Shown here in pieces: positions 3,510-55,211 of a DNA stretch of 59,619 nt. The position numbers and the translations under genes are program-made. Position 1 is the first letter of the stretch. Every line of letters begins with the position of its first letter. The DNA comes from a virus, in the IMG/VR virus record IMGVR_UViG_3300046170_000404, positions 1-59,619 of that record. The stretch is one strand, 5' to 3'. Under the pieces are notes generated by a model. The model was not told where the DNA came from and ran no database searches. It saw nothing but the letters and a program-made list of their open reading frames with translations.

Positions 3510-3773
3510 TCAAGTAATTTCTTCTGGCGTAACGTCAATGATATTTTTGGCTTCTCCAATTTTACCTTCAAGTTCGGATAACCGTTTCTCAAGTTGTTCA
3601 CGACTCATACCCTCCAATCCAACATGGGTTACTTCTTTTTTATCTACAAAGAATCCTGCCATTTGACCACTACGATATTCTGCATTTACAGCTACAGAAA
3701 ATTGTTTTTTATCTTCTGCTTTTTTACTTAAGTGTTTCAAATCTTTTATATTTTTTAAGCTTGTCCCCTTCAT
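3510..3773 (-). CDS. terS: Terminase small subunit, C-terminal fragment
   Basis: The fragment continues the 3724-4017 frame after one extra base. It reads ...KHLSKKAEDKKQFSVAVNA, then EYRSGQMAGFFVDKKEV, then MSREQLEKRLSELEG. That is the usual second half of phage small terminases: a helix carrying the A-x-x-A-E repeat followed by the G-x-x-A-G-x-x-x-D-x-K/R-K/E segment. Its own ATG (3773) has no separate function that I can support. See the N-terminal fragment for the junction. Confidence 0.7.
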   Translation of the reverse strand: MKGTSLKNIKDLKHLSKKAEDKKQFSVAVNAEYRSGQMAGFFVDKKEVTHVGLEGMSREQLEKRLSELEGKIGEAKNIIDVTPEEIT

Positions 3774-4017
3774 GTTTTTTTAACTCCTGGTTATATTTCA
3801 TTTCCATATAACGCACTACATGAGGATTTTTATTTGGATTAGTTAGTCTACTTGCAATTTCTGTTGGTCCTTCTTTTTTCTCTGAGGTATAGCCAGCTCT
3901 GGAAGCTGCTTCGGTTTTAGAAATCTCTCCCCAATTACTAACATATATATCCACAAACGCTTTTTGTTTTAAAGTTAGTTCAGATGTTGATTTCAAAGTA
4001 TTTTTTCTTTTAGTCAT
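3724..4017 (-). CDS. terS: Terminase small subunit, N-terminal fragment
   Basis: The fragment starts MTKRKNTLKST and contains LTLKQKAFVDIYVSN, then EAASRAGYTSEKKEG, then the NPHVVRYMEM helix. This is the Terminase_2-type DNA-binding helix-turn-helix (LT.KQ..FV..Y...G....AA..AGY). Small terminases bind the packaging site and recruit the large subunit. The frame should pass into the 3510-3773 frame near the A7 and G4 runs (about 3765-3781), where one base too many is present. On a circular map it lies upstream of the large terminase on the same strand. The intact protein would be about 170 aa, normal for the family. Confidence 0.75.
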   Translation of the reverse strand: MTKRKNTLKSTSELTLKQKAFVDIYVSNWGEISKTEAASRAGYTSEKKEGPTEIASRLTNPNKNPHVVRYMEMKYNQELKKHEGDKLKKYKRFETLK

Positions 4018-5771: not shown

Positions 5772-5955
5772 TAATATAATCCCACGCTACCTTAAATAAT
5801 AATACTTGTTCTGCTTCTGATGATGAGCCGTGAGACGTGCTTCCTGATCCATTGCAAATGATACAAGATACAAAACTATTGACTAGAAGTCTTTTATTAA
5901 CCCTGTACCTTTACAGTCGGTACATATCTTGTAGGTTGCGTAATAGTTTAGTCAT
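5743..5955 (-). pseudogene. DnaJ-type zinc-knuckle small protein, frame disrupted
   Basis: Two CxxCxGxG motifs are visible, CTDCKGTG in one frame and CIICNGSG in another, separated by the usual short linker. This is the zinc-binding repeat of DnaJ cysteine-rich domains and of many small phage proteins. Reading from ATG 5955, one base too many near the start (AAA after ATGACT) and one too few in the A run of GTTAATAAAAG restore a single protein of about 70 aa ending EQVLLFKVAWDYINGKQNG. The zero frame as given is broken by TAA. The start region lies inside the 76-bp repeat at 5942-6017. Confidence 0.5.
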
Positions 5956-6017
5956 ATAAAAAATTTACCTTCATAGGCAAGTACTTATTATAAACTAATC
6001 AGTGTCGTGGGTACAAG
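5942..6017. repeat. 76-bp direct repeat, copy 1
   Basis: It is nearly identical to 6580-6654; differences are confined to about four bases (TTCATAGG against TTAGTGG). The copy spans the last codons of the Mom-like gene, the intergenic space and the ribosome binding site plus start codon of the zinc-knuckle gene. Two copies bracketing one gene point to a tandem duplication or cassette insertion. Confidence 0.85.
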
Positions 6018-6580
6018 GGACAGGAATTATTTTTTTACAGTAAACTAACTTAGGTTTTAAATTTTCTCTATCCCAAATTCTTTTACCATTCTTAAATACA
6101 CCTTTTTCTTTTCCAGATACTCTCTTACAAGTATAGCCATGAGTCTTACCAACAAGGTCCCATTTATCTTTTTTATACAGATCTGCAGTTCTAGGTGGTT
6201 CAATTAAAGATTCAAAACCTATGACCTTATTTTTATATTTATTATACCAATCAATACTAATTTGAGATCTCCATGTAGCTAACACCTTAGAAGTAAAGTT
6301 ACGAGTTGGATACTTTCCATTAACTTTTTCTACATGATAAAAGATATTATTTATAATGTTAGGAAATTTAGATTTATCAATTCCAAAAGTATTCATTGCG
6401 TCCTGGTAGAAACAAAGTGCAGCTCCCACCAATAATATGGCCATAATAAATATCATTATAGTAAATCGCATAACAAATAGATCTTCCTACAAAACCTTTT
6501 GGCTTTGTGTAATGTTTAGCCATTGATTGTTTAAGTCGTTCATCATTCTTTAAAGTTACTTCTAAACGAATCATTCCCAA
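5995..6580 (-). CDS. Mom-like (GNAT-fold) candidate DNA-modification protein, one frameshift
   Basis: Two frames join where one extra T is present (A run 6385-6388 on the plus strand): the first gives HYTKPKGFVGRSICYAIYY and IIGGSCTLFLPGRNEYF, the second continues GIDKSKFPNIINNIF, YPTRNFTSKVLATWR, VIGFESLIEPPRTADLYKKD, WDLVGKTHGYTCKR. The layout resembles Mom/DUF4338-type proteins: an HY start, a hydrophobic strand with a GG, a conserved R-N-F-T helix, and a Y-x-x-x-x-W-x-x-V-G-x-T-x-G end. Mom of phage Mu modifies adenine to protect DNA. The assignment rests on motif layout only and is tentative. The gene lies between two 76-bp repeats and near a halogenase and a cytosine methyltransferase. 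Confidence 0.5.
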
Positions 6581-6654
6581 ATAGTTTAGTCATATAAAAA
6601 ATTTACCTTAGTGGCAAGTACTTATTATAAACTAATCAGTGTCGTGGGTACAAG
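6580..6654. repeat. 76-bp direct repeat, copy 2
   Basis: This is the second copy of 5942-6017, just upstream of the Mom-like gene. It carries the same ATGACTAAACTATT start region on the minus strand and also a fossil of the coding end found in copy 1 (GACACTGATTAG), with no gene body attached. It therefore looks like the scar of a duplication followed by loss or replacement. Confidence 0.85.
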
Positions 6655-6705
6655 TTACAAGAAAAATATTTTTAATTAAAATGTTGTATGTTATATTTAC
6701 TTATC

Positions 6706-7122
6706 ATGAAAATAACTATTTTAGGAAGGGGTAATGCTGGATGTATATCTGCAATGCACCTTGCATATTTTAGAAAATTTAAAAATACTAAAGTAGAAAT
6801 AGATTTAATTTACGACTCTAACATTCCACCAGTGCCTACAGGTCAAGGTACTACGTTAGAATTTCCTGAAAAATTATTTGAAAATTTTGGCTCAAGTATT
6901 TTTAAATCATTTCCACATACTATTAAAGGTGGGATCATGTATGAAAATTGGAATAAAAAAAATAATAAATTCTTTCATTCTTTTCCTGTAGGTAAGTATG
7001 GATTACATATAGAACCTAAGGCATTTCAAGATTATGTATGTAATAATTTAAAAGTAAATTTTATGTCTAAGGATGAAAACATACAAAGCTATGATAGCCG
7101 TGGATTCAGATTACATTATTGA
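6706..7122 (+). CDS. Flavin-dependent halogenase, N-terminal fragment
   Basis: The start was chosen at ATG 6706 (MKITILGRGNAGCISAM). The GxGxxG FAD-binding motif is at residues 7-12, followed by PPVPTGQGTTLEFP and YGLHIEPKAFQDYV, the segment that in tryptophan halogenases precedes the second strand of the FAD domain. The family (PF04820) uses reduced flavin, oxygen and halide to halogenate aromatic substrates. A marine viral member, VirX1 of cyanophage Syn10, is known. The frame is lost near 7098-7105 by one extra base and continues in the 7073-7819 frame. It stands on the plus strand, opposite its neighbours. Confidence 0.8.
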   Translation: MKITILGRGNAGCISAMHLAYFRKFKNTKVEIDLIYDSNIPPVPTGQGTTLEFPEKLFENFGSSIFKSFPHTIKGGIMYENWNKKNNKFFHSFPVGKYGLHIEPKAFQDYVCNNLKVNFMSKDENIQSYDSRGFRLHY

Positions 7123-7819
7123 TTGCAGAGGTAAGCCCTCTGATTTTAATGATTATGCTCCCCTCGTTAATCCACTTAACTGTGCTTTATTATCTGAGCT
7201 GCCACCAAAGGTAAATGATGTAAAATGGACTAGAGCAATTGCTCATGAACATGGTTGGTGTTTTTATATACCTTTACCAAGTAAAACTTCTTTAGGATAC
7301 CTGTTCAATTCAAACATAACTACAGCTGAAGAGGCTACTCTAAATTTTAAGAAAAAATTTGGAATAGAAAAAGTAAACAAAGTATTTCCTTTTAATCAAT
7401 ATATAGCCAAAGATCCCATTATAGATAATAGAGTCCTTCTTAATGGTAATAAATTATTTTTTTTAGAACCCTTAGAAGCTACTGCAATGGCTACTTATAA
7501 TTTTACTATTCAATGTTACTTCGATTATATGTTTCATAATATTGATGGTCAAACAACTAAATTCAAAATATTAGATTATATAAATAAAGTTGAAAATTTT
7601 ATTTTATGGCAATATCGAAACAATACTTTCTATCAAACTAAATTTTGGGATTTTGCTAATAAGCTTTCATTAAATACAGATCTTGGAGATTTAAATAGAA
7701 TAATGACTGTGGTCAAAGATATGACTGCAGAAGATACTAGAAAAAGTATTAAAGACAATGATAACTATGCTCAATGGCAGAATTGGAATTTTAAAATTTT
7801 TCATGACAACAGAATTTAA
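7073..7819 (+). CDS. Flavin-dependent halogenase, C-terminal fragment
   Basis: The fragment joins the N-terminal one as ...VDSDYIIDCRGKPSDF, the expected V-x-A/S-D-x-V/I-I-D-C-x-G motif. It carries HEHGWCFYIPLPSKTSLGY, a variant of the halogenase WxWxIP motif (W-C-F-Y-I-P), and the ending of the FAD domain (LEPLEATAMATYN, matching the family's L-E-P-L-x-x-T). The C-terminal helices (MTVVKDMTAEDTRKSIK) are poorly conserved. Taken together the enzyme would be about 370 aa, shorter than tryptophan halogenases (about 500) and nearer the short marine phage type. Substrate unknown. Confidence 0.8.
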   Translation: MKTYKAMIAVDSDYIIDCRGKPSDFNDYAPLVNPLNCALLSELPPKVNDVKWTRAIAHEHGWCFYIPLPSKTSLGYLFNSNITTAEEATLNFKKKFGIEKVNKVFPFNQYIAKDPIIDNRVLLNGNKLFFLEPLEATAMATYNFTIQCYFDYMFHNIDGQTTKFKILDYINKVENFILWQYRNNTFYQTKFWDFANKLSLNTDLGDLNRIMTVVKDMTAEDTRKSIKDNDNYAQWQNWNFKIFHDNRI

Positions 7820-7844
7820 TTATTTCTTTGGCTCTCTTTGTTTT

Positions 7845-9140
7845 TTACCTTCCTATCAATTCTGCTAAACCTCTACCATAACCTTTTGTAGTTCTACCAG
7901 GTTCGTTTGCTCTAGGAGTCGGATAAAACTTTCTTGATTGCGAGTCCGAAGATTCTTGCCATTTGTGGGACGATTGCGTTTCCGAGACTTTTGATTCTGC
8001 TTGCTCTATCTTTGTCCAATTCTCTGGAAATCCCATTAGGAACTCCACAAAGGTCGGATTCAATTTGCCACCAGGTTTTGGTATTTCGTTCTTTAGCATG
8101 TTGCCCACTACTGTTGATTTCCCCTTCTGACTGATTGGGAACGTCACGTTCTTTGAGTCGTGAGCCGTGGGTGTTGGTATTTGATTCTTGTCTGTGTTGT
8201 AAATCTTGTTCACTACATCGTTCAACTTCGCTCCGAACTTGGTTCCAGTGCCAACCCTCGTTACACTCCAACCTGATGAGTTCTGCTTCACTGTCTCTGG
8301 TGGTGCTACTACATCCATCTGACAACTCGCTGATGGTGTAGGAAACATTTGCATGTGTGCCGTCAGATTGTGTTGAGATGCTGCCTTCTCTCCCTTCCTC
8401 TTGATTAATGTCTCTGCATCCTCCTGTCCCGATGCTCTCGGTGTTGGATACATCTTCACTTGATCTGCTGCTATTCGTTGACCCAGACTGTGACCTCTCG
8501 TTTTCCCTACTGAGGGTGGTACCTTGTTCACTGAGTCCTTCCAATCTCTTGCGTTCGGTGTTGGGTACATCTTCTTTTGTTTCTGTATTTCGTCTGCTAC
8601 TACTCTCATCGATAGATCCATTCCCCTCGTTTTCCCTATTGATGGTGGCACTGTGTTCCTTGAATGATCTTGTGATGTCGGTGTTGGATACATCTTCATC
8701 GTTTCTGGATCCACTTGTTCTCTTAGATTCGATGGTTTGGTTCTGCCCTTCCTGTGTCCCTCCATTAATTTTTTTGTCCCTGCTGAGCTTCTCGGCGGCA
8801 AGTAATCCATTGTGTTTGGAGTGGCCCACAATCCAGACTCTAAATCTTTGGTGCCAAGCACCGATGCCTGAAGCTGGTATAAGGAAACATTGGACTTCGA
8901 AACCTTCACCTTCCAAGTCATCTTGCACCTGTCTGAGGACCATGCCGTTTTGGAGGTTAACAAGTCCTTGCACATTCTCCCCAATAACGAACTCGGGTTT
9001 GATTTCTTTAATGAGTCTAAACATTTCTGGCCAGAGATAACGGTTGTCGTCTCTCCCTTTTTGTTTTCCTGCAACGCTGAACGGCTGGCAGGGAAAACCT
9101 CCGACCACGATGTCTGCTTCGAATTCTTTTCCTTTGACAT
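7845..9140 (-). CDS. Out-of-frame overlapping ORF inside the methyltransferase gene
   Basis: A 431-codon frame begins inside the methyltransferase gene and ends 67 bp past its stop. It contains at least five spaced copies of a (M/F)(Y/F)PTP motif (KMYPTPTSQDHSRN, KMYPTPNARDWKDS, KMYPTPRASGQED, QMFPTPSASCQMD, KFYPTPRANEPGR) and the ending GGKLNPTFVEFLMGFPENWT. I know this ending and the PTP repeats from phage proteins that overlap cytosine methyltransferase genes, so the frame is probably translated. The same DNA in the other frame gives repeated DVSNT or DVPNT. Function unknown; it may act with the methyltransferase. Confidence 0.65.
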   Translation of the reverse strand: MSKEKNSKQTSWSEVFPASRSALQENKKGETTTVISGQKCLDSLKKSNPSSLLGRMCKDLLTSKTAWSSDRCKMTWKVKVSKSNVSLYQLQASVLGTKDLESGLWATPNTMDYLPPRSSAGTKKLMEGHRKGRTKPSNLREQVDPETMKMYPTPTSQDHSRNTVPPSIGKTRGMDLSMRVVADEIQKQKKMYPTPNARDWKDSVNKVPPSVGKTRGHSLGQRIAADQVKMYPTPRASGQEDAETLIKRKGEKAASQHNLTAHMQMFPTPSASCQMDVVAPPETVKQNSSGWSVTRVGTGTKFGAKLNDVVNKIYNTDKNQIPTPTAHDSKNVTFPISQKGKSTVVGNMLKNEIPKPGGKLNPTFVEFLMGFPENWTKIEQAESKVSETQSSHKWQESSDSQSRKFYPTPRANEPGRTTKGYGRGLAELIGR

Positions 9141-9312
9141 TTTTTATATCTCCTTCAATTGGTATGTTTGGATAATTCTTTTTTAAAACCTTTTGACAAA
9201 ACTCATCAAACTCTACAAACTTAATTGTATCAAATATTCCTGTTGAGTGGAGGCCTAACGAGAAGCCTCCAATCCCAGAAAATAAATCTAAAACTTTTAA
9301 TTTATTTTCCAA
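7912..9312 (-). CDS. dcm: DNA cytosine-5 methyltransferase
   Basis: The enzyme methylates C5 of cytosine in DNA using S-adenosylmethionine. Motif I DLFSGIGGF (residues 9-17), motif IV GGFPCQPFSV with catalytic Cys75, motif VI ENV (112-114), motif VIII QRFRVW (155-160), and at the C-terminus motif IX/X DRASRIKSLGNAIVPQM are all visible. The central 200 residues are low-complexity, rich in S, E, R and T with repeated DVSNT, and hold no obvious normal target-recognition domain; this is exactly the part overlapped by the second frame. All catalytic residues are present, so it is probably active. In a lytic phage it most likely protects DNA from host restriction. It overlaps the next gene upstream by 11 bp. 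Confidence 0.9.
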   Translation of the reverse strand: MENKLKVLDLFSGIGGFSLGLHSTGIFDTIKFVEFDEFCQKVLKKNYPNIPIEGDIKNVKGKEFEADIVVGGFPCQPFSVAGKQKGRDDNRYLWPEMFRLIKEIKPEFVIGENVQGLVNLQNGMVLRQVQDDLEGEGFEVQCFLIPASGIGAWHQRFRVWIVGHSKHNGLLAAEKLSRDKKINGGTQEGQNQTIESKRTSGSRNDEDVSNTDITRSFKEHSATINRENEGNGSIDESSSRRNTETKEDVPNTERKRLEGLSEQGTTLSRENERSQSGSTNSSRSSEDVSNTESIGTGGCRDINQEEGREGSISTQSDGTHANVSYTISELSDGCSSTTRDSEAELIRLECNEGWHWNQVRSEVERCSEQDLQHRQESNTNTHGSRLKERDVPNQSEGEINSSGQHAKERNTKTWWQIESDLCGVPNGISRELDKDRASRIKSLGNAIVPQMARIFGLAIKKVLSDS

Positions 9313-23615: not shown

Positions 23616-24477
23616 TTAATTTGGTGTAACATCGTATTTGTTACCATCGTATTGTTTAATACTAACACCTTCACTTAAATCTACATAGTTAGAGGCACCT
23701 CTTCCAGAAGCCTCCATAATCTCAAGTGCAGTTGTAAAGTCTGCATTATTATCTTCTGCAATTGCAATAGCATCTGCAAAGTAACTATCTAATGCTTGTA
23801 GCTTTGCCTCAAACGTAGCTTCAGTGTCCCCTACTTGTGGGATAAGTTTTGTAATTCTTTCTGCTTCTTGCTCTGATACTGCAGCACCAGAGATCGCTTG
23901 TGTTACGAATGATGTTGCTTGTTGTATTCTACTTTTAAAAGCACCATAGTCTTTTGAAAATTGTGACCCCCCTACTTTACCAAGTGATGCTCTAATTCTT
24001 GATAGATCCCCAAACCCTACTGGCTTACCTAATTTATAATAGTCATCACCAATTCTAGATAAAATAGTTCTTACTCTTTTACTAACCTCTCAGTTCCTTC
24101 ATCTGTTCTGCAGAAGGCTTAGATACAACTGTAATTTTACCATCACCGTCTATTTGAGCCACAGTGCCAGTTGGTAGTTTATAGTTTTTTAATTCTGATT
24201 CAGTTAAAGTTCTAAGCCCTTTACCAGAACCCTTTGCTTTTTCTACAGATAGAATAGTTGCAGGTAATTTAGCAACACCTTCTCCTAATGCTGATAGTGC
24301 AGGAGAAAGTCCTTTACCTTTTGCTTGAAGTAATGGTGCAGCCAAAGTTGCGGCATAGATAGCTTTTTCTTTAGGAGTTAATGCAGATATACCTCCAGTT
24401 TGAAAATGTTTTATAGTTGGTTTCAATGACTTGAAGTATCTATCTTTAAACATTTTTCTTGTTAATACTTTATCCAT
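23616..24477 (-). CDS. Internal virion protein, split by a frameshift
   Basis: The first frame (24477 to stop at 24082) has MFKDRYFKSLKPTIKHFQT and an alanine-rich segment (AIYAATLAAPLLQAKGKG). The stop TAG at 24082-24084 interrupts it; skipping one base gives SKRVRTILSRIGDDYYKL...ASLGKVGGSQFSKDYGAF...SGAAVSEQEAERITKLIPQV to a stop at 23616. The second part is a good 155-residue helical domain with no start of its own, so both belong to one protein of about 285 aa. Position between ejection-type genes suggests an internal virion protein. Confidence 0.65.
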
Positions 24478-28565: not shown

Positions 28566-29129
28566 TTATGGTTTGTAAACATGTTTAAATTCAGAATTGT
28601 TAGCTGTCCACTCTAAAAATTCTTCACTCTCTACAATAGGGTAGCCCGCTAAATTAAAAGAAGTATTTAATAGCATAGGGACATTTGTTTTTTTAAAAAA
28701 CATTTCTATTAAATCATAATAATTTTTATTATCTATTTTTTTTAAGGTTTGTATCCTGCAAGTATTATCTACATGCACTATAGAAGGTACTTCTTTAATT
28801 GCTTTCTCTTTAGCATAAACTGCAAACGACATGTGTGGACTTTCTTTTAATGTACCTAAATCAAAATAATCATGTGCGTGTTCCAACAATATTGTCCCTG
28901 CAAGTGGTCTCCACCATTCTCTTTTTTTAAATTTATTAACAATGTTTTTAGCTTCAGGATTTCTAGGATCAAATAAAATAGAACGATTACCTAAAGCTCT
29001 AGATCCCCATTCGCTTTCATTTTGAAAAATAACTAATGGTTTTTGTTCCAGTAGTATGTCTACTGCTTTTTCTTTAGTTTCTATAATTATCATAATACAA
29101 TGCAGCTCCAATAGCTGTTCCACCATCAT
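28566..29129 (-). CDS. Carbamoyltransferase (NodU/TobZ), C-terminal fragment
   Basis: The fragment holds NESEWGSRALGNRSILFDPR and LLNTSFNLAGYPIVESEEF, the strictly conserved E-x-G-x-RALG-x-RS and NTSFN motifs of NodU/CmcH carbamoyltransferases. These use carbamoyl phosphate and ATP to carbamoylate hydroxyl groups of sugars or antibiotics. It is separated from the N-terminal half by one extra base near 29074-29090. Its own first methionine is out of context, so it should be read as the second part of one gene. Confidence 0.8.
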   Translation of the reverse strand: MMVEQLLELHCIMIIIETKEKAVDILLEQKPLVIFQNESEWGSRALGNRSILFDPRNPEAKNIVNKFKKREWWRPLAGTILLEHAHDYFDLGTLKESPHMSFAVYAKEKAIKEVPSIVHVDNTCRIQTLKKIDNKNYYDLIEMFFKKTNVPMLLNTSFNLAGYPIVESEEFLEWTANNSEFKHVYKP

Positions 29130-29997
29130 GTGGTATAGGGTCTACAAAAAAATTTAATTCAGGGTATTGTTTAACATATTTAAAATTATTAGAGCAATTT
29201 AAAAAATAACCACCAGATAATACAATATTTTTACTTCTATGTTTTACTTGATTTATTAATTCACAAGTTTCTACATAAGTTTTTTCTTGTACCTCTTTTG
29301 CAATATTTACATTATCATAATCTAAATTATACTTTTTATCAGTATAAGCATATGAAGATAATCCCATAACTTTACCAGAATTTTCACCATCCTCTGCATA
29401 ACCAATTTCACCACATGCTTTTGTAAAAGATGCACCACCTCTTATTTCATTACTAAATTTATTTCGAAAGCCATCAACGTATTTAAAAAAACTAAAAGGA
29501 GACATATCTTTAGATATTTCTGCTTTCATACAAGTGCTGTGCTTATAGAAAGGCACAACATTTTTTTTATTAATTAAATAAATTGATTCTATTTCTTGAT
29601 AAGGAATATAAGAAGCGCAAGCACCTCCACCGTCAACTATAATAGCTGCCGCCTCATCAAAATCTGAAAAATAAAAAGAACTTATTGCGTGATAAATATG
29701 ATGTTGTTTTTCATTAAAATAATAAGGAGGATTATCTAATTGTTTTTGTAAACAATTTATAATGTCTTGATCATTACCACATTCATAAGAAAAATTTCTA
29801 CCATAAGATACATAGCAAACAAAATCTGGTTGAAAGTTTATTTTTTGTAAAATAGATTGATATACTTTTAAATTTTTATCTGGGGTATAACCTTTTTTTA
29901 AAACAAATCTTGTTTCGTCAAAGTAGTGTGTAATTCTTTTATTTTCATACACACAAATAGATGGATTATGAGAAATATTAATAGAAAGTATTTTCAC
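29074..29997 (-). CDS. Carbamoyltransferase (NodU/TobZ), N-terminal fragment
   Basis: MKILSINISHNPSICVYEN is the typical start (IxxxHxxS). KQHHIYHAISSFYFSDFDEA supplies the metal-binding histidines, and AIIVDGGGACASY and IVLSGGYFLNCSNN are the conserved glycine-rich and lG-G-x-x-N-C motifs of the N-terminal ATPase-like domain. Reading into the 28566-29129 frame needs one base fewer, just before the TAA at 29074-29076. Complete, the enzyme would be about 475 aa, short but plausible. Lies with two glycosyltransferases. Confidence 0.85.
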   Translation of the reverse strand: MKILSINISHNPSICVYENKRITHYFDETRFVLKKGYTPDKNLKVYQSILQKINFQPDFVCYVSYGRNFSYECGNDQDIINCLQKQLDNPPYYFNEKQHHIYHAISSFYFSDFDEAAAIIVDGGGACASYIPYQEIESIYLINKKNVVPFYKHSTCMKAEISKDMSPFSFFKYVDGFRNKFSNEIRGGASFTKACGEIGYAEDGENSGKVMGLSSYAYTDKKYNLDYDNVNIAKEVQEKTYVETCELINQVKHRSKNIVLSGGYFLNCSNNFKYVKQYPELNFFVDPIPHDGGTAIGAALYYDNYRN

Positions 29998-30671: not shown

Positions 30672-30832
30672 GATATAAACCAATTAAAAGTATCTTGTTC
30701 ATTTTTTAATTCTTGTTGATAAGAAGTGTTTAACTTATCTTGCATCGTTCGTAAAGACTGTGCTACTTGTCTTTGGTTTTCTTGAGTATAAGCAGGGGTA
30801 GGTTCGGGTATAACAATATCTACTCTGGCCAT
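30668..30832 (-). CDS. Small hypothetical protein (54 aa)
   Basis: Starts MARVDIVIPEPTPAYTQENQ at 30832 and ends EQDTFNWFIS. Its start overlaps the tail protein stop, and its own stop overlaps the next start. Highly helical. It is typically found in this position next to the large tail protein. Function unknown. Confidence 0.65.
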   Translation of the reverse strand: MARVDIVIPEPTPAYTQENQRQVAQSLRTMQDKLNTSYQQELKNEQDTFNWFIS

Positions 30833-32982
30833 TATCTCATTCCATCTGGTTGAACATCTACTCTAAAAGTTCCATATCTCCAATTTTGATCTGTAGAAGT
30901 ATTTGCTATTTTAACACTAGCAAACCTAGATCTCGCTCTTGTGTCTACCTTTTGTGTTGATCCGGTAACCGTGAATGGTCCTAAAGGAGAAGATGTTTCT
31001 GTATCACTAGGGAAGTCTCTAAGTAAAATAGTTACTTGGGCATCACCCTGTATAAGTTTAAAATCTGGAATAAACCTTCTCATACTCATAAACATTTGTG
31101 CTTCACCCTCAACGGCTAAACTAAAGTCCCCTGATTCAATAAAAGCTGCAATAGCTGTTTTGTTTCCTGCAGTATCTACCTGATCTGTTCCAACTTCGTG
31201 AGCATAATAAATAGTCCCACCATTTAAATTTGTTACACCTTGAATTAAAGGGAAAGTTGGTGTTGTTGTTGAATTAAATTCAGTTGCATAAGGAACATCG
31301 TATAAATTGGCATCTGTCCAAGTAGTTCTTGATAAAGAACCTGTTGTCCATGTTCCACTTTGATAATTAAAAGTAACGCATCTATCATTAAAATCTGAAC
31401 CTGCTTTAGGATAAAACCAAGTAAGTTCTTCATATAAATGATTAAGTCCTACGTATACTGATTCACCGTTTTGATAATTAACCCCAAGGTTATCTCCTTT
31501 ACTTGTAAATACAAAGTCTTCAACTTGGCATGGTAAAGATTTAACGGTACCATCGTATACAAAGAATCCACCAGATTCCCCCATCCAATATACAGCTCCA
31601 TTTACATATTTTATAGAGTGTTGTCCAATAGCTCCACAATTAGAACCTACTTGTCTTATAGAAAAAGTGAAAGGTGGTCCTACAAATTGAATTACATAAG
31701 CTGAATTATCGGTTAAAACTAACGTATAATCTTTTCCTTTAACTGCCCCTACTATTTTTGTACCTGCATCTATTCTAAAGGTACCAGCCGTGTTTACTGA
31801 AGTTGGTGCATAGTCACTAATATTTTCTTGATCAGAAAACCTTATAAACATTTTATCTTGCGTGCCCCCACTTCCAATTGTAGTTTCAGTCCCTAACATT
31901 AATAAATGCCTATCCCTATCTGATACAAGAGACATAACTGATTTTTCTGGTGCTCCACTTACAACAGTTGCTCTTGTAGTTAATGCATTAGGATTTGAGT
32001 TAATGGGATTCCATTCAAATGTTTTACCATTTTTAATTGTAGCAATTAATTTTTCTCCAAAATTATCTAAAGACCAAGATGCAGGATCAATTGTCAAAGT
32101 CGAAGCTAAAGAAGCTTGTCCCCAACCAGTGTAGTATTCAACACCAGACCCAGATGCATGTGCAGATCTTGTACCTGCAGTTGCTCTAGTAATTCCTGTA
32201 AGATCATTTGTAGATACACCAGTGTAAGAAATAAATTCTGCGCCAACTTTTATTGTTCCAGAAGTTGGAAACCCAGTTGTTGATGCAAGTGTAATAGAAG
32301 TTCCAGACCCCCCAGTACCTGCAGTGTCATCTAATAAAGCTCCGTTTAAAGTTCCAAATACTTGTTGACCTCCACCCCATAGTCCTGTTCCCCAACCAAA
32401 ACCATAAGTAAAACCTAGAGCACCTGCACTAATGTACGGATTGACAGTTGCAGACCCACTTCCGTTGACCGTGGTTCCTGCTGCGCTTGCCATTGTAATA
32501 GTAAAAGAATCACTATCTGGAACAGTGACTACTTGAAAAGTATTTGTTTCAAAATTTCCAGCAGTGTATCCAGCACCAGACGGAGGAGTAACTGAAGTAA
32601 ATGTAAATAAGTCTCCAGGTTGTAATGTATGAGCTGCTTTATTTACCGTAACGGTAGCCGAAGTATTTACAGTATCAAATGTACAACCAGTTATAGCTGT
32701 ACCTAATGGTGTTATATCGTAAAAAGCACCTTCATAATAAATAATTAAAACTTTGTTTGTGCCTATGGCTGCATATCTTCGACCATCTAAATCAGCCCAT
32801 ATAAACTGTTCTCTTGCTGCACCTACTAAAGATGAATTAACAAGTTGTTCCCAACCTCCTATTTTTTCAGGTAGTCCGTATCTAAAACGTACAAAGTCCC
32901 CATCAGTCCACTGACCTTGAGCTCCTGTTTCAGTTACCTGTTTGTTAAATCCTGGTGCTATTTGTACTTTTGTTAGAGGCAT
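30832..32982 (-). CDS. Large tail/stabilisation protein (P22 gp10-like)
   Basis: Starts MPLTKVQIAPGFNKQVTETG and TDGDFVRFRYGLPEKIGGWE, a beginning I recognise from marine short-tailed phages and related to packaged-DNA stabilisation proteins (P22 gp10). The 716 residues are beta-rich with repeated strands and several Ig-like-looking stretches (GSGTSITLASTTGFPTSGTI). It would sit at the tail hub. It heads the 30-33 kb tail group and is followed by small accessory genes. Confidence 0.75.
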   Translation of the reverse strand: MPLTKVQIAPGFNKQVTETGAQGQWTDGDFVRFRYGLPEKIGGWEQLVNSSLVGAAREQFIWADLDGRRYAAIGTNKVLIIYYEGAFYDITPLGTAITGCTFDTVNTSATVTVNKAAHTLQPGDLFTFTSVTPPSGAGYTAGNFETNTFQVVTVPDSDSFTITMASAAGTTVNGSGSATVNPYISAGALGFTYGFGWGTGLWGGGQQVFGTLNGALLDDTAGTGGSGTSITLASTTGFPTSGTIKVGAEFISYTGVSTNDLTGITRATAGTRSAHASGSGVEYYTGWGQASLASTLTIDPASWSLDNFGEKLIATIKNGKTFEWNPINSNPNALTTRATVVSGAPEKSVMSLVSDRDRHLLMLGTETTIGSGGTQDKMFIRFSDQENISDYAPTSVNTAGTFRIDAGTKIVGAVKGKDYTLVLTDNSAYVIQFVGPPFTFSIRQVGSNCGAIGQHSIKYVNGAVYWMGESGGFFVYDGTVKSLPCQVEDFVFTSKGDNLGVNYQNGESVYVGLNHLYEELTWFYPKAGSDFNDRCVTFNYQSGTWTTGSLSRTTWTDANLYDVPYATEFNSTTTPTFPLIQGVTNLNGGTIYYAHEVGTDQVDTAGNKTAIAAFIESGDFSLAVEGEAQMFMSMRRFIPDFKLIQGDAQVTILLRDFPSDTETSSPLGPFTVTGSTQKVDTRARSRFASVKIANTSTDQNWRYGTFRVDVQPDGMR

Positions 32983-33235: not shown

Positions 33236-33787
33236 CTAAACCTCCTTTCTAGTTCCCCAAAGTTTTCTTTTATCTCCAAAATGATCTGCATATAAACCAT
33301 TTGCATCAACATAATGAAGAAATGTTTGAGCACACCAATCTCCTTGAAATTCATTTCTCCAATGAGTGAGGTCACAACCTAAATATATTACTCCATCTCC
33401 AGGATTTAAGTCTATTGCTTTGTCTTCAATAAAAATAGGCCACTCTGTTCCATCACTTCCAATATTTACTGTAACACTTATTTCACATGACGGTCTATCT
33501 TTGTGTGCCGACAGTTCAGAAAATTTTGTATACATTCTCCAAAAAGAATAAGTTGGTAATAGTGAAAGTCCTGTAAGTTCCTCCATTTTAGATTTTTTGT
33601 TACATAGTAAAGATTCCATAATAGGATCTCCGTAAATAGAAGTATCCCAATTTGTTGATTGTTCCATGTCAAATTGACTATCGTTAATTCTATGTTTTAT
33701 TTGACAGTAAGTATTTAAAATATTTTTTTCTTCTACTGTTAGAATATTTTTAACTTTTTTATATTTAAATTGTTTTATGTTGTCCAT
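33236..33787 (-). CDS. 2OG-Fe(II) oxygenase
   Basis: The iron motif is SAHKDRPSCEISVTVNIG (His-x-Asp, first two ligands), with the second His in IYLGCDLTHWRNEF and an Arg in the final strand region. The strand pattern fits the double-stranded beta-helix. Marine phages carry such hydroxylases next to structural genes; substrate unknown. It overlaps the next oxygenase gene by 13 bp, so two oxygenases are co-translated in tandem. Confidence 0.75.
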   Translation of the reverse strand: MDNIKQFKYKKVKNILTVEEKNILNTYCQIKHRINDSQFDMEQSTNWDTSIYGDPIMESLLCNKKSKMEELTGLSLLPTYSFWRMYTKFSELSAHKDRPSCEISVTVNIGSDGTEWPIFIEDKAIDLNPGDGVIYLGCDLTHWRNEFQGDWCAQTFLHYVDANGLYADHFGDKRKLWGTRKEV

Positions 33788-34335
33788 GCTGCAATACTAT
33801 ACCTTTCTCCGTTTTTGACAGGGGCTACTGAGTGTGGAAACAAAAAACAAGATGGCCAAATTATAATTCTATTTTTCTTTTTTTGAATTTTAAATTCATT
33901 AGTACCATTAGGGTTTCTAAAACAAAGTTCTCCCCCTTCATAATCTTCATTTAAAAAAATTATACAACTTAAAGTTCTCGACATTTGTGGTGCATGATCA
34001 TAATGCCATACATAATAATCCGATGATTGGTACTTTAAAAATTGAATTGATTCAATACCACTTGTATAAATTGTTTTAATTTTGTTTTCTTCTGTATATC
34101 TAGACACAGTATTTGCAACAATATCTTTAATTATATAAAACCAATGTACTTCAGTCATTGATTCACTAGAAGGATGCACACCACAAATATTTACTTTTCT
34201 AACTTTTTTGTTAATTTCACCCTGTCCAACTTCTCCTTCTTTCCAAGTAAAATTTTTACATACTTTAAAAAGTTTGTTTAAAACTTTTTCTGGAAAAACA
34301 TCATCATAAACATTAATGTAATTTTTTAAGTCCAT
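33775..34335 (-). CDS. 2OG-Fe(II) oxygenase, prolyl-4-hydroxylase-like
   Basis: YYVWHYDHAPQMSRTLSCII provides the His-x-Asp iron site, IFLNEDYEGGELCFRNP the typical L-N-x-x-Y-x-G-G-E-L strand, and IIIWPSCFLFPHSVAPVKNG the second His; ERYSIAAWTT gives the Arg. This is the closest match to prolyl 4-hydroxylases in the window. In phages these may hydroxylate proteins or nucleic acid. Substrate unknown. Overlaps the next oxygenase and DUF6065-like genes. Confidence 0.85.
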   Translation of the reverse strand: MDLKNYINVYDDVFPEKVLNKLFKVCKNFTWKEGEVGQGEINKKVRKVNICGVHPSSESMTEVHWFYIIKDIVANTVSRYTEENKIKTIYTSGIESIQFLKYQSSDYYVWHYDHAPQMSRTLSCIIFLNEDYEGGELCFRNPNGTNEFKIQKKKNRIIIWPSCFLFPHSVAPVKNGERYSIAAWTT

Positions 34336-35069
34336 TTTTTTTTATTCCAAAATTTATTTTTATACTTATGTAATATTCCTAGACTATAAAATATTTTGTT
34401 TTTAATTATATCATCTGTCGATGCACTTTTTATTTTCATATTCCAAGAATCTCTTTTAAAAGGTATTATTTGAACATAAGGTGTTCCCTTTTTTATTGTT
34501 GTTTCTAAATATGGATATTTATCTCCATTAATCACAATTGGAAAATTAATTTCATTTTTAAAACTATCTGTATCGACTATTCCAGAAATTATAGAAAACC
34601 TATCATCAGTATTATTTAAGGGTGGCACAAATAAACATGAGTAACCAGGAGGTGTTTTTATTATCCATGGATTTAATATTTTTAAAAAAGGAAGTTTTTT
34701 ATTTTTTTCTACATATGGAGATTCTCCTAATTGATGCGGAGGGTGCATATTTGGAGTGTTTCCAGTTAAATTAATTGATTTTTTATATAGTAAAGAATCA
34801 TCTGCTTCGTTAGGATGCCAAATAATATCCCCACTTCCGTCTTCTTTTTTAGAGTTATGTATAAAAGAATAATCTTGAGGTACCTTTAAAAGATAACCAG
34901 TTGTTAAGGTATCTAGAAAAGGCATACAACCTTTTACGGTTTGGCTTCCTACATTATGGTTTAATTTTTTAAACCAATCTGGAATATTTAATTTTATTGG
35001 AGTGGGATAATCTTCTTTAAATTTAACGTAATCTTCATGTGCAATAAATTCTATATTTTTAGAAAACAT
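34326..35069 (-). CDS. DUF6065-like hypothetical protein
   Basis: The 247-aa protein has IKLNIPDWFKKLNHNVGSQT, TVKGCMPFLDTLTTGYLLKV and NMHPPHQLGESPYVEKNK; it resembles a family often found beside 2OG oxygenase genes in marine phages (DUF6065). Beta-rich and cupin-like, with several conserved His. It overlaps the oxygenase gene by 10 bp, so the three genes may act on the same substrate. Function not established. Confidence 0.6.
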   Translation of the reverse strand: MFSKNIEFIAHEDYVKFKEDYPTPIKLNIPDWFKKLNHNVGSQTVKGCMPFLDTLTTGYLLKVPQDYSFIHNSKKEDGSGDIIWHPNEADDSLLYKKSINLTGNTPNMHPPHQLGESPYVEKNKKLPFLKILNPWIIKTPPGYSCLFVPPLNNTDDRFSIISGIVDTDSFKNEINFPIVINGDKYPYLETTIKKGTPYVQIIPFKRDSWNMKIKSASTDDIIKNKIFYSLGILHKYKNKFWNKKKWT

Positions 35070-35592: not shown

Positions 35593-36867
35593 TTATTGTC
35601 CTGTATTTTCTAAAATTAATATTAGCCCTTGTTTTCCAGATGTTCCTGCTGTGGCTTGATTAGGGCTTATTGAAATACCACCCGGACCTCCTTCGCCATA
35701 TGATACAACAGAAGTACCAGTTGCTCCAGATGATCCATAAATTCTTGAAGGTAAAGTAGTCAAAGTAGCGGGGGCTGTTACAGAAGTAGCACCATTGTTA
35801 CCAGGGTTTCCTACAGGTTGACCATGCCAACTTCCACCTTGTCCACCATTTCCTGCAGTGAAACTAAAAACATTAGTTAAAGAAGTTGTACCACCAGCAC
35901 TACCAGCATTTCCTCTTGGGTTTTGTGGATTTCCTCTTGAACCTCCAGCTCCAACACTAAAAGGTTGTGAAAAAGGTTGCGTTATTGGTTTGCTTACAAA
36001 TCCAAAAGCACCGTTTCCTCCGTTTCCTCCTCCAGGCCCTGCACCTGGATTATAAGCTCCTCCGCCTCCGCCTCCGCCTGCGTAAGCATATATTCCAGCA
36101 AAGTTTGCGTTTGCACTAGCTGTATAAGTTCCAGAAGAAGGTCCTGCATTAACTTGTTTGAATATCATGTTAGCACCACCACCTGCTCCATCTGCAGCAG
36201 CAGTAAGTCTTCCTTGAGCATCAACTGTAATAGCCGCTGACGAGTAAGATCCTGCAGTTACTGCAGTGTTTGCTAATTTGTCAGCAGTCACAGCATCGTC
36301 TGCGATTTTTGCAGTGCTTACTGCTGAGTCTGCGATTTTAGCAGTAGTTACATTTGCATCAGTAATTTTAGCAGTAGTTATAGCATCGTCTGCAATTTGT
36401 GCGGTTGCAATTGTACCTGAAATATTTGCAGCAGCAATAGTTCCACCTAGAGTGTCTAATGAAATTTCATTTAAGTTTGTTCCATCAGAATATGCTGCGT
36501 AAATTTTTGCTTGGTCTAAAGTAAATCCAGTTCCTGATGCAGTTTTAATTGTAAGGTTAGTTGGATTAGTTAAACCTGTTGCATCAAATATATAAAATTT
36601 TTCTATTGAATCTGGGATAGTACAAATTGTACTAGCAGCAATAGTTGCTGATGCAAATTTAATTACCATGTTTCTTGCGTTAGATAATGCACCATCTGAC
36701 ATTACAAGTGCTAAAGTACCACCACTTGAAAGTGTTACTTGTTCGAAACCAGCGATAGCTTGTTGAATTACATTTAAGTTTGTGTTTGTTTTATCTCCCC
36801 ATGTACCAGCGTTTTCGCCAGTCACCATTAGTTCGAGTTTTAAATCTGTAGAATAACTAGATGTCAT
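35593..36867 (-). CDS. Tail fibre-like protein with glycine-rich end
   Basis: The N-terminus (MTSSYSTDLKLELMVTGEN) is a common start of tail-fibre-like proteins in marine podoviruses. The middle has the periodic pattern TAQIADDAITTAKITDANVT repeated, typical of a triple-helical or beta-stranded fibre shaft. The last part is rich in G and N (YAGGGGGGGAYNPGAGPGGG), forming a receptor-binding or spacer tip. It likely binds the host surface. Confidence 0.75.
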   Translation of the reverse strand: MTSSYSTDLKLELMVTGENAGTWGDKTNTNLNVIQQAIAGFEQVTLSSGGTLALVMSDGALSNARNMVIKFASATIAASTICTIPDSIEKFYIFDATGLTNPTNLTIKTASGTGFTLDQAKIYAAYSDGTNLNEISLDTLGGTIAAANISGTIATAQIADDAITTAKITDANVTTAKIADSAVSTAKIADDAVTADKLANTAVTAGSYSSAAITVDAQGRLTAAADGAGGGANMIFKQVNAGPSSGTYTASANANFAGIYAYAGGGGGGGAYNPGAGPGGGNGGNGAFGFVSKPITQPFSQPFSVGAGGSRGNPQNPRGNAGSAGGTTSLTNVFSFTAGNGGQGGSWHGQPVGNPGNNGATSVTAPATLTTLPSRIYGSSGATGTSVVSYGEGGPGGISISPNQATAGTSGKQGLILILENTGQ

Positions 36868-52880: not shown

Positions 52881-53737
52881 TATTTACTTTGTCTTTTTTT
52901 AATTCTAGCAATCTCAAGTTTCTCATCAGCAATTCTAATTCTTTCTGCTGCTTGATCTTCATTGTTTTCTAGTTTCATTTTTTCAATATCTAATCTTTCA
53001 TCGATTTCATTTTCTCTAATCTCATTAGAATTCATATCTTGTTCTGCTCTTCTTTGAATATCAATTGCTTTTAGATCTAATTCTCTTTCTTTTAATGCAA
53101 CTAGTGGATCTTTCTGTTGACCCATAGCTTCACCTTGAGCAAGTTGTGTTGTTATCTCTGCAACTCTTTTTGCAATCATAGAAGCAACTTGAATCTCTGC
53201 TCCTTCTGGATCTTGTTGTAACATCTGTTGCATTTGAGGATCATTTTGAATCATTGCACCAACTTCTCCTTGTGCTTTTAATGAAACGTGCTCAGATATG
53301 TGTGCTTGTAGAGCTGAATACACTTGAGGATTAATTTGAACCATTCTTGTTTGCATAAATGCTACATGAGCTGAAATATGTGCGTCATGATCTTGAGTTG
53401 GAAATGCTCTTAAAGGTTTTTGCATTAAAGCTTCCATATTCTCGGTCGCTGGATCTTTAGGAGTTGGTTTTTCTTGTGGAATAAGTAATTGATCTATGTC
53501 TTGAGTTCCTAATGCTTCATATACTCTACGATATGCCTCTCTCAAGTTGTGCATCATAGGATTTGACATAGCAATCTTTAAATTTTCGTTAGCAAGCGTT
53601 ACTCTTTGTGCCATACTCATAATATTTGGGTCGGCAACCGGTATTACATCTACTCTATCATCGAAATCAGTTTGTTTTACTGCTTGATCAGGCACCATAT
53701 ACTGAATATGGGTAGATCGGTGGTAGATATGTACCAA
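52880..53737 (-). CDS. Portal protein, C-terminal fragment
   Basis: The fragment continues the portal frame: DQAVKQTDFDDRVDVIPVAD then PNIMSMAQRVTLANENLKIA, the conserved back end of P22-type marine portals, followed by a glutamine-rich helical tail (QMQQMLQQDPEGAEI, DEKLEIARIKKRQSK), the barrel-like region. Its ATG and the first 15 residues (MVHIYHRSTHIQYMV) are an out-of-frame extension. The join is at 53687-53693, where one base is in excess. Confidence 0.75.
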   Translation of the reverse strand: MVHIYHRSTHIQYMVPDQAVKQTDFDDRVDVIPVADPNIMSMAQRVTLANENLKIAMSNPMMHNLREAYRRVYEALGTQDIDQLLIPQEKPTPKDPATENMEALMQKPLRAFPTQDHDAHISAHVAFMQTRMVQINPQVYSALQAHISEHVSLKAQGEVGAMIQNDPQMQQMLQQDPEGAEIQVASMIAKRVAEITTQLAQGEAMGQQKDPLVALKERELDLKAIDIQRRAEQDMNSNEIRENEIDERLDIEKMKLENNEDQAAERIRIADEKLEIARIKKRQSK

Positions 53738-55211
53738 ATACTTTTGATAAAAGTCTAAATTCTCTTCTCATTGAGTAGTAACATCGCTTGTGTATTGCGC
53801 TCATGACCCTCGATCCACGTTCCAATAAGGACACAGTGGTACCAACAGCTCTATTTTGCATGTCATTACCTGTATCCATGTTAGTAATTGCTGCAAACTT
53901 CTGTCCTGCGTTAACAACAAAGCCCATTAATTGATATAATGTAGCTGATGGCTCTTTAAAAGGTAAAATTTGAAATTGATCTTTGATGTTACCCCCAGGT
54001 GCATCCACATCTCTGAACTCTCCTGGTTGAAATGGTTGGTCATCGTCTCTAATTCTTATACCTCTAGACTTAAATCCTGCAGGTAAGTTAGATAATGTAC
54101 CTGCATCTAGTAATTGTCTTAGTGATTGTGTTGCAGTTCTAGATAATCCACCTATCATGTGTGTTAATCCAAAACCATAAAAACCTAATCCTGGTAAAAA
54201 TTTAAAATGTACAAAGTATTCTTTTCTTTTTTTAGTTTCATCTGCCATATCATAGTTACGATAGATAGATAAAACTTCTCCAGAGCCTTCATCAATAGTT
54301 ATGATGTAAGGAACCTTAACTTCTTTTTCTGAATTAGTGTTTTCAAACTCTTGTAAATTACAATCAACGTGCATCTCAAGAACTGAGTATGAATATTGTT
54401 TATCAGTTGAAGGAGTAACCCCTTCTAACTCTTGATATTTTTTTTCAATTTCTGTGGGACCACTTGAAGTTGGTTTTAATTCTACATCTCTATAAAATCC
54501 TGCTGCTTGTTTTTTAAGTATTTCATTCTCTCCCATTTTTATAACATGGGTAATTCTTTCACATTCTAATAAATCGCTAGCATAGTATGGAACCACTAAG
54601 TCTTCTGCAGGAATAAATTTAGATACAGCTCTTTGCATCACTTCATCATAGTAAACCTTCTTAAATGCAGAACCTGCTAATGCTAAATAAAATAATAACT
54701 GATCAAATTCTGGAGTGTACTCTTCCATCTCTTCAGTAATCATGTAGTTCATAAAATCTTGAACACGTTGTGCTTGATTTACTTTTTCATTATCTTCCAT
54801 TCCAAGAACTCTAGCTCTTACAGGTCCTTGAGACGGGAGTAATTCTTTATAGGCTTGTGCTTGAAATTGAGTTACAGCTTCTGATAAAAGTGGATGAGTC
54901 ACGGATGCCGAACCTTTAAACGGTCTAGTCATCTCTGTGTGTTTAATTCCAAGTAAATCTAAATTATTGGTATAAGAAGTTTCCCAATCTTTTCTTGAAA
55001 CTCTATCTTTTTTATAATCATCTAATAGCTGATTTGACATTCTTTGAAGAGTCTCGTCAGACATGTCTTCTGCAAGATTCTTAAAAAATTCTTCAGTCTC
55101 GTTGACAGCTTCTTCTACAGTTGTCGGTTCCTCACCTTCAATTTCGATATCAACTTCTTCTGAATCAGGAGTTATTACTTCCTCTTCAATTGCTTTGTCA
55201 ATTTCAGCCAT
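53688..55211 (-). CDS. Portal protein, N-terminal fragment
   Basis: The acidic N-terminus (EEVDIEIEGEEPTTVEEAVN) precedes the portal fold: RPFKGSASVTHPLLSEAVTQ, FDQLLFYLALAGSAFKKVYY, GLGFYGFGLTHMIGGLSRTA, QLMGFVVNAGQKFAAITNMD and a final IYPYSVYGA. The frame ends GCC-TGA at 53688. Dropping one base gives GAT CAA GCA and continues the portal (DQAVKQ). Portals form the dodecameric DNA channel and are essential, so the gene must be intact in a working phage. Intact length would be about 770 aa. Confidence 0.85.
   Translation of the reverse strand: MAEIDKAIEEEVITPDSEEVDIEIEGEEPTTVEEAVNETEEFFKNLAEDMSDETLQRMSNQLLDDYKKDRVSRKDWETSYTNNLDLLGIKHTEMTRPFKGSASVTHPLLSEAVTQFQAQAYKELLPSQGPVRARVLGMEDNEKVNQAQRVQDFMNYMITEEMEEYTPEFDQLLFYLALAGSAFKKVYYDEVMQRAVSKFIPAEDLVVPYYASDLLECERITHVIKMGENEILKKQAAGFYRDVELKPTSSGPTEIEKKYQELEGVTPSTDKQYSYSVLEMHVDCNLQEFENTNSEKEVKVPYIITIDEGSGEVLSIYRNYDMADETKKRKEYFVHFKFLPGLGFYGFGLTHMIGGLSRTATQSLRQLLDAGTLSNLPAGFKSRGIRIRDDDQPFQPGEFRDVDAPGGNIKDQFQILPFKEPSATLYQLMGFVVNAGQKFAAITNMDTGNDMQNRAVGTTVSLLERGSRVMSAIHKRCYYSMRREFRLLSKVFGTYLPPIYPYSVYGA

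Follow-up and report, generated by a model that had tools for sequence, protein, structure and literature searches.

A compact flavin-dependent halogenase in a relative of pelagiphage HTVC023P, with a reading-frame break that is most likely a record error

The IMG/VR virus record IMGVR_UViG_3300046170_000404, analysed here over its whole length of 59,619 nucleotides (the window), contains a halogenase-like gene lying in two reading frames, and this raises the questions of what kind of enzyme it encodes, whether the gene is whole in the phage, and how the phage came by it. TerL and PolA of the window phage are 91.9% and 87.9% identical, respectively, to those of pelagiphage HTVC023P, a virus of the ocean bacterium Pelagibacter, and mark the phage as a close relative of it. 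We consider it quite probable, taking the three answers together, that the product is a compact flavin-dependent halogenase (FDH) of a class of 350-400 aa with a non-tryptophan aromatic as its probable substrate, that this HTVC023P relative gained the gene singly, and that the slip in its frame most likely arose as a mistake in the record.

The gene occupies window positions 6706-7819 on the plus strand, and a one-base slip close to 7096-7099 divides it between two frames. Its features are as follows.

6706..7122, plus strand: N-terminal part of the halogenase (start at 6688 or 6706), frame 1, with the FAD-binding motif and the catalytic Lys; homology reaches to about residue 130 (7095)
6724..6741, plus strand: GxGxxG dinucleotide motif, GRGNAG, residues 7-12
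6925..6927, plus strand: codon for K74, the catalytic Lys, which aligns with K79 of PrnA and is found in all 64 members
7073..7819, plus strand: C-terminal part, frame 2, homologous from about 7100, with DCRG, WCFYIP and LEPLEATA; stop codon at 7817-7819
7090..7102, plus strand: point where the frame slips by one base from the first part to the second; in relatives the gene runs on unbroken here
7256..7273, plus strand: WCFYIP, the equivalent of the WxWxIP motif, residues 184-189; all 64 members have its Phe
7475..7477, plus strand: codon for E257, the catalytic Glu, in the context LEPLE-ATA; it aligns with E346 of PrnA and does not vary among the 64 members

The first open reading frame (ORF1) carries GRGNAG and the Lys motif TIKGGIMYENW, and the second (ORF2) carries VDSDYIIDCRG, WCFYIP and LEPLEAT. 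Each half alone scored above the curated cut-off of 21 bits for Pfam PF04820 (Trp_halogenase), ORF1 with 47.7 bits (E 1.4e-12, profile positions 1-113) and ORF2 with 58.6 bits (E 6.6e-16, profile positions 203-413), and both matched phrog_2928, 'tryptophan halogenase' (E 2.8e-18 and 9.6e-46, respectively); none of these matches can be put down to chance. The sequence matches in the PDB were FDHs of PF04820 type (PrnA, PyrH, Thal, RebH, VirX1 and BrvH), apart from a single insignificant one. When the four bases 7096-7099 are read as one step, an uninterrupted protein of 370 aa is obtained, which is colinear with intact relatives of 370-375 aa. A sequence-only reading made before this study had given the same coordinates, strand and motifs, all of which proved exact, and it had also called for a correction of the frame, rightly, as the slip is there and the two ORFs join across it.

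With regard to the slip itself, an uninterrupted ORF of at least 350 aa was observed in 148 of the 149 relative loci with a located gene. The close IMG/VR relatives L001, L003, L014 and L015 (370-375 aa, 60-75% identical) are unbroken. Other genes that are single ORFs in HTVC023P are split in the window record, namely the portal (52883-55211), the small terminase (3513-4017) and a gp82 homologue (23619-24477), along with, less clearly, the homologues of gp23 and gp25; sister contigs have the portal and the small terminase uninterrupted. The two domains of a carbamoyltransferase (28566-29997) also lie in different ORFs, and the upstream neighbour of the halogenase (5995-6580) is broken as well. 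These breaks suggest a notable indel error rate in the record. The stretch 33769-34437 is likewise among the genes split between reading frames, and an exact DNA pattern search found no near-identical contig across the slip. The dN/dS of the two halves of the halogenase is about 0.10 and 0.16-0.19 against relatives 74-75% identical (dN about 0.1-0.2, dS about 1), a sign of purifying selection on each. Since 148 of 149 relatives are open, at least five other conserved genes are broken and selection on both halves is purifying, a mistake in the record is the most economical account, and on these sequence comparisons the slip is most likely not a property of the phage. A genuine slip in the phage itself, which would make the gene a recent pseudogene, is unlikely; the record does contain the slip, and the loss of an accessory gene that sister phages lack would be tolerated, but this reading is opposed by the frame breaks in other conserved genes, such as the portal and small terminase, and by the low dN/dS of both halves. 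Programmed +1 frameshifting was also weighed, as the two frames overlap at 7073-7122, and was rejected as extremely improbable, considering that it is used by none of the unbroken relatives and that the record is widely broken at unrelated places.

The fold and active site of the read-through protein agree with the family assignment. An AlphaFold model built on a five-sequence alignment was unusable (pLDDT 39.5), a problem solved by an alignment of 64 sequences (pLDDT 92.2, pTM 0.91), and all 50 of the PDB matches listed by Foldseek for this model were FDHs, with TM by query length of 0.71-0.81. In the profile alignment K74 falls on PrnA K79 and E257 on PrnA E346, PrnA numbering being counted from the printed alignment. 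Across 64 diverse members of the compact class, G7/G9/G12, K74, H101, D139, C140, G142, W184, F186, N246-G247-N248, E257 and W314 are invariant, and K74 and E257 are unchanged down to 34% identity. Lys, Glu and Ser occupy equivalent positions in PyrH, Thal and PrnA, and in Thal the replacement of the catalytic Lys by any other residue abolishes tryptophan halogenation (PMC7948982); the position after the catalytic Glu, Ser in these three enzymes, is Ala or Ser in the compact class, followed by T/S and A/S. Neither WxWxIP nor Fx.Px.Sx.G is present to the letter, their places being taken by WCFYIP and FLEPLEATA. WxWxIP is typical rather than universal and is reported to be missing from some active FDHs (PMC8407142), so the altered motif is no bar to membership, though the two changes leave some room for a neighbouring flavin chemistry. 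An FDH had been called from the motifs before, to be given up if the catalytic Lys were missing or the best structures were non-halogenases; as the alignment places both the Lys and the Glu, and the structures listed are FDHs throughout, the call is borne out by profile, sequence and fold.

A flavoprotein that has kept the FDH fold and acts as a monooxygenase on its substrate, no longer halogenating, is an improbable alternative to this halogenase. It draws on the second Trp of WxWxIP, which has been suggested to hold the substrate away from the flavin (PMC8407142) and is Phe in all 64 members, and on the Ala or Ser after the catalytic Glu; it is opposed by the persistence of K74 and E257 at low identity and by those active FDHs that do without the WxWxIP motif.

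As to the substrate, the window halogenase has neither the stretch of about 50 residues that PrnA-type enzymes insert behind the HxF strand nor the C-terminal region holding Trp4 and the lid. By the definitions of PMC8269204, no Trp4 motif (YYxxF..NFW or (Y/H)YHG) occurs in the 56 residues after W314, and residues 48-53 read GTTLEF where Trp1 would read AT(I/V/F)(P/S). Trp4 contacts tryptophan, and FDHs without it are expected to take other substrates (PMC8269204). Because the compact class is without the Trp4 and lid region, free tryptophan is an unlikely substrate, and a non-tryptophan aromatic is our best guess from sequence. That the protein is a genuine tryptophan halogenase of the PrnA or PyrH kind (groups A/B) has in its favour the Pfam and annotation name and the conserved HxF of the Trp2 region, but we regard it as very improbable in view of the missing Trp4, lid and Trp3-bearing insertion, the divergent Trp1, and a length of 370 aa against 497-554 for solved PF04820-type FDHs. 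The sequence-only reading had taken the altered W motif as a sign of a substrate or halide range unlike that of tryptophan halogenases; since F186 is invariant across the class, WCFYIP says nothing special about this protein, and a substrate other than tryptophan is made likely by the missing Trp3 and Trp4 regions instead. VirX1 has no helical lid, and PMC7948982 accounts in this way for the wide range of substrates and halides that it accepts; by analogy, the pocket of the compact class would be expected to be open.

In short, the gene probably encodes a small flavin enzyme that attaches a halogen to an aromatic molecule. The analysis shows its family and fold, the catalytic residues, the absence of the lid, purifying selection, and the pattern of presence and absence among related phages; that the enzyme is active, which halide and substrate it takes and how the phage profits from it are inferred. 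The enzyme would consist of the PF04820 FAD core without the insertion and C-terminal lid that help to bind tryptophan in PrnA-type enzymes. By the example of characterised FDHs, it would bind FADH2 from a flavin reductase of the host, which with O2 would give C4a-hydroperoxyflavin; this would oxidise the halide to hypohalous acid, which would pass through an internal tunnel to K74, and K74 with E257 would direct electrophilic halogenation of an electron-rich aromatic, probably not free tryptophan. A profile search of the window found no match to the Flavin_Reduct family.

The window halogenase is a further member of an abundant compact FDH class of marine phages and is ordinary in kind. The class is defined by 350-400 aa, colinearity, WxFxIP and NGN before FLEPLE, all of which the window protein shows. 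In IMG/VR, a profile scan established 495 contig relatives that belong to the more distant compact class (80 were retained), and a wider scan yielded 71 loci related to the window halogenase; one pelagiphage halogenase has matches in 82 phage records. Lists of cyanophage genes have included prnA from 2010 on, T4-GC 212 having a short form of 1104-1167 nt and a long one of 1437-1593 nt (PMC3037559, PMC2984593), and a 2023 survey reported tryptophan-halogenase genes in 20 of 153 cyanophages (PMC10452541). These numbers do not bear out the earlier statement that only a few viral FDHs are described. No published assay of a compact-class enzyme was found in the literature searched, and a scan of bacterial and archaeal genomes returned no close relative and identified no cellular donor.

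The surroundings of the gene were compared with those in sister phages, and comprise the following.

5995..6580, minus strand: upstream neighbour, one ORF of 194 aa in L172, two ORFs in the window (6377-6580 and 5995-6471) with a frame break
6580..6681, minus strand: non-coding repeat of about 96 bp between the halogenase start and a divergent small gene; a copy 91% identical to it lies at 5942-6037
6581..7823, no strand: stretch of 1.24 kb differing from sister contig L172, with the halogenase as its sole gene, replacing 417 bp
7912..9312, minus strand: gene for a C5 cytosine DNA methyltransferase (PF00145), convergent with the halogenase; sister phages that have no halogenase carry it too

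In six sister contigs (L166, L167, L168, L169, L171 and L172), whose PolA is 95-98.6% identical to that of the window, both flanks and the methyltransferase are present and no halogenase lies between them; HTVC023P has neither gene at this site. The counterpart of 6581-7823 in L172 is 417 bp (L172 3907-4323) carrying most of an ORF of 153 aa. Because the six contigs are without the gene and the site in L172 is replaced by a one-gene stretch, we infer that the halogenase was gained as a single-gene replacement, the direction and mechanism being likewise drawn from these comparisons. Separate acquisition and separate regulation had both been read from the orientation of the gene. The neighbours are indeed on the minus strand, including the methyltransferase, and the six contigs favour the first claim; opposite strand alone is no evidence for the second.

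One copy of the 96-bp repeat abuts the edge of the insertion, in a promoter-like position upstream of small genes, and in sister phages the repeat is found upstream of a 69-aa gene. The methyltransferase is almost wholly overlapped by a second long open frame, 7845-9140 on the minus strand, whose 431 aa include repeated Y/F-PTPxA units. Five sister contigs keep these two frames long and open, with many stops in the third. Relatives of the second frame, at most 37% identical, go under the label 'cytosine methyltransferase' in Paenibacillus and other phages; from these sequences the locus looks like a dual-coding, two-polypeptide methyltransferase. A different halogenase of 506 aa was noticed in L174 (2736-4256, minus strand; the same contig as L166, PolA 97%), which has no compact one. 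Its best PDB match is VirX1 (E 2.5e-108), and it occupies the place of the carbamoyltransferase of the window and adjoins a glycosyltransferase.

The closest homologues (60-76% identical) lie on IMG/VR contigs with HTVC023P-like tail genes, between homologues of the window tail/structural genes (30832-32982, 35593-36867) and of 2OG-Fe(II)/ferrochelatase-type genes (33236-33787, 33775-34335). In the window this module sits 25 kb from the halogenase, and there is no second halogenase. HTVC023P-type phages carry several 2OG-Fe(II) and ferrochelatase genes (PMC9599517), and the main text of that survey makes no mention of a halogenase. The idea of a constant pairing with 2OG-Fe(II) oxygenases was weakened, as about one third of the downstream neighbours of non-redundant close relatives are 2OG-type by Pfam, making the association common and not universal; other downstream neighbours are M15 peptidase/endolysin and carbamoyltransferase genes. 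In the distant compact class, the commonest identified neighbours are capsid and segE endonuclease genes of T4-like phages. As a speculation to which we give little credence, the lid-less compact FDHs and flanking 2OG-Fe(II) oxygenases of tail modules might tailor a macromolecular or surface target, such as a virion protein or glycan; if true, they would constitute an unrecognised phage system of protein or glycan tailoring.

This study extends an abundant and biochemically uncharacterised class of phage enzymes to a pelagiphage of HTVC023P type, and the comparison with sister phages shows the gain of its gene as a single unit. With 370 aa and no tryptophan lid, such an FDH core would offer enzymology a small and open scaffold, and as long as its substrate is not established, the gene is an ordinary accessory gene.

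Among known systems, the nearest in form are the compact 'tryptophan halogenases' of cyanophages (the short T4-GC 212 of S-ShM2, S-RIM14, S-SSM5, S-SSM7 and Sf-CH8) and of Marine virus AG-345-E15, which at 359-390 aa are 27-39% identical to and colinear with the window protein over most of its length, and keep the Lys and W-x-F. The cyanophage members differ in belonging to T4-like cyanomyoviruses, with capsid, transaldolase and phoH genes as neighbours, and that of S-SSM7 has Gln where the window protein has E257. VirX1 of cyanophage Syn10 (PDB 6QGM), the first viral FDH characterised (PMC8407142), is likewise a lid-less PF04820 FDH of a marine phage with conserved Lys and Glu. It had been named as the established viral example, but taking it as the model for this gene is not supported, as with 531 aa (PMC8407142), WVWNIP and FIEPLESTG it belongs to a different, long class (about 500-530 aa, WVWNIP, EPLESxG), whereas the window protein has 370 aa, WCFYIP and EPLEATA and is only 21% identical to the 507-aa paralogue of Syn10. 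The halogenase of Pelagibacter phage HTVC008M is also a pelagiphage FDH, and its gene adjoins one for a phytanoyl-CoA/2OG-Fe(II) dioxygenase, but it has 464 aa and WVWKIP, comes from a myovirus and is only partially similar. PrnA, PyrH and RebH share the FAD core fold and the equivalents of K79 and E346, and differ in having the insertion of about 50 residues, Trp4, the lid and an unaltered W motif. BrvH and other group C FDHs (PMC8269204) resemble the window protein in being without Trp4 and in a likely non-tryptophan substrate, although BrvH is bacterial and, with 511 aa in the solved chain 6frl, about 140 residues longer.
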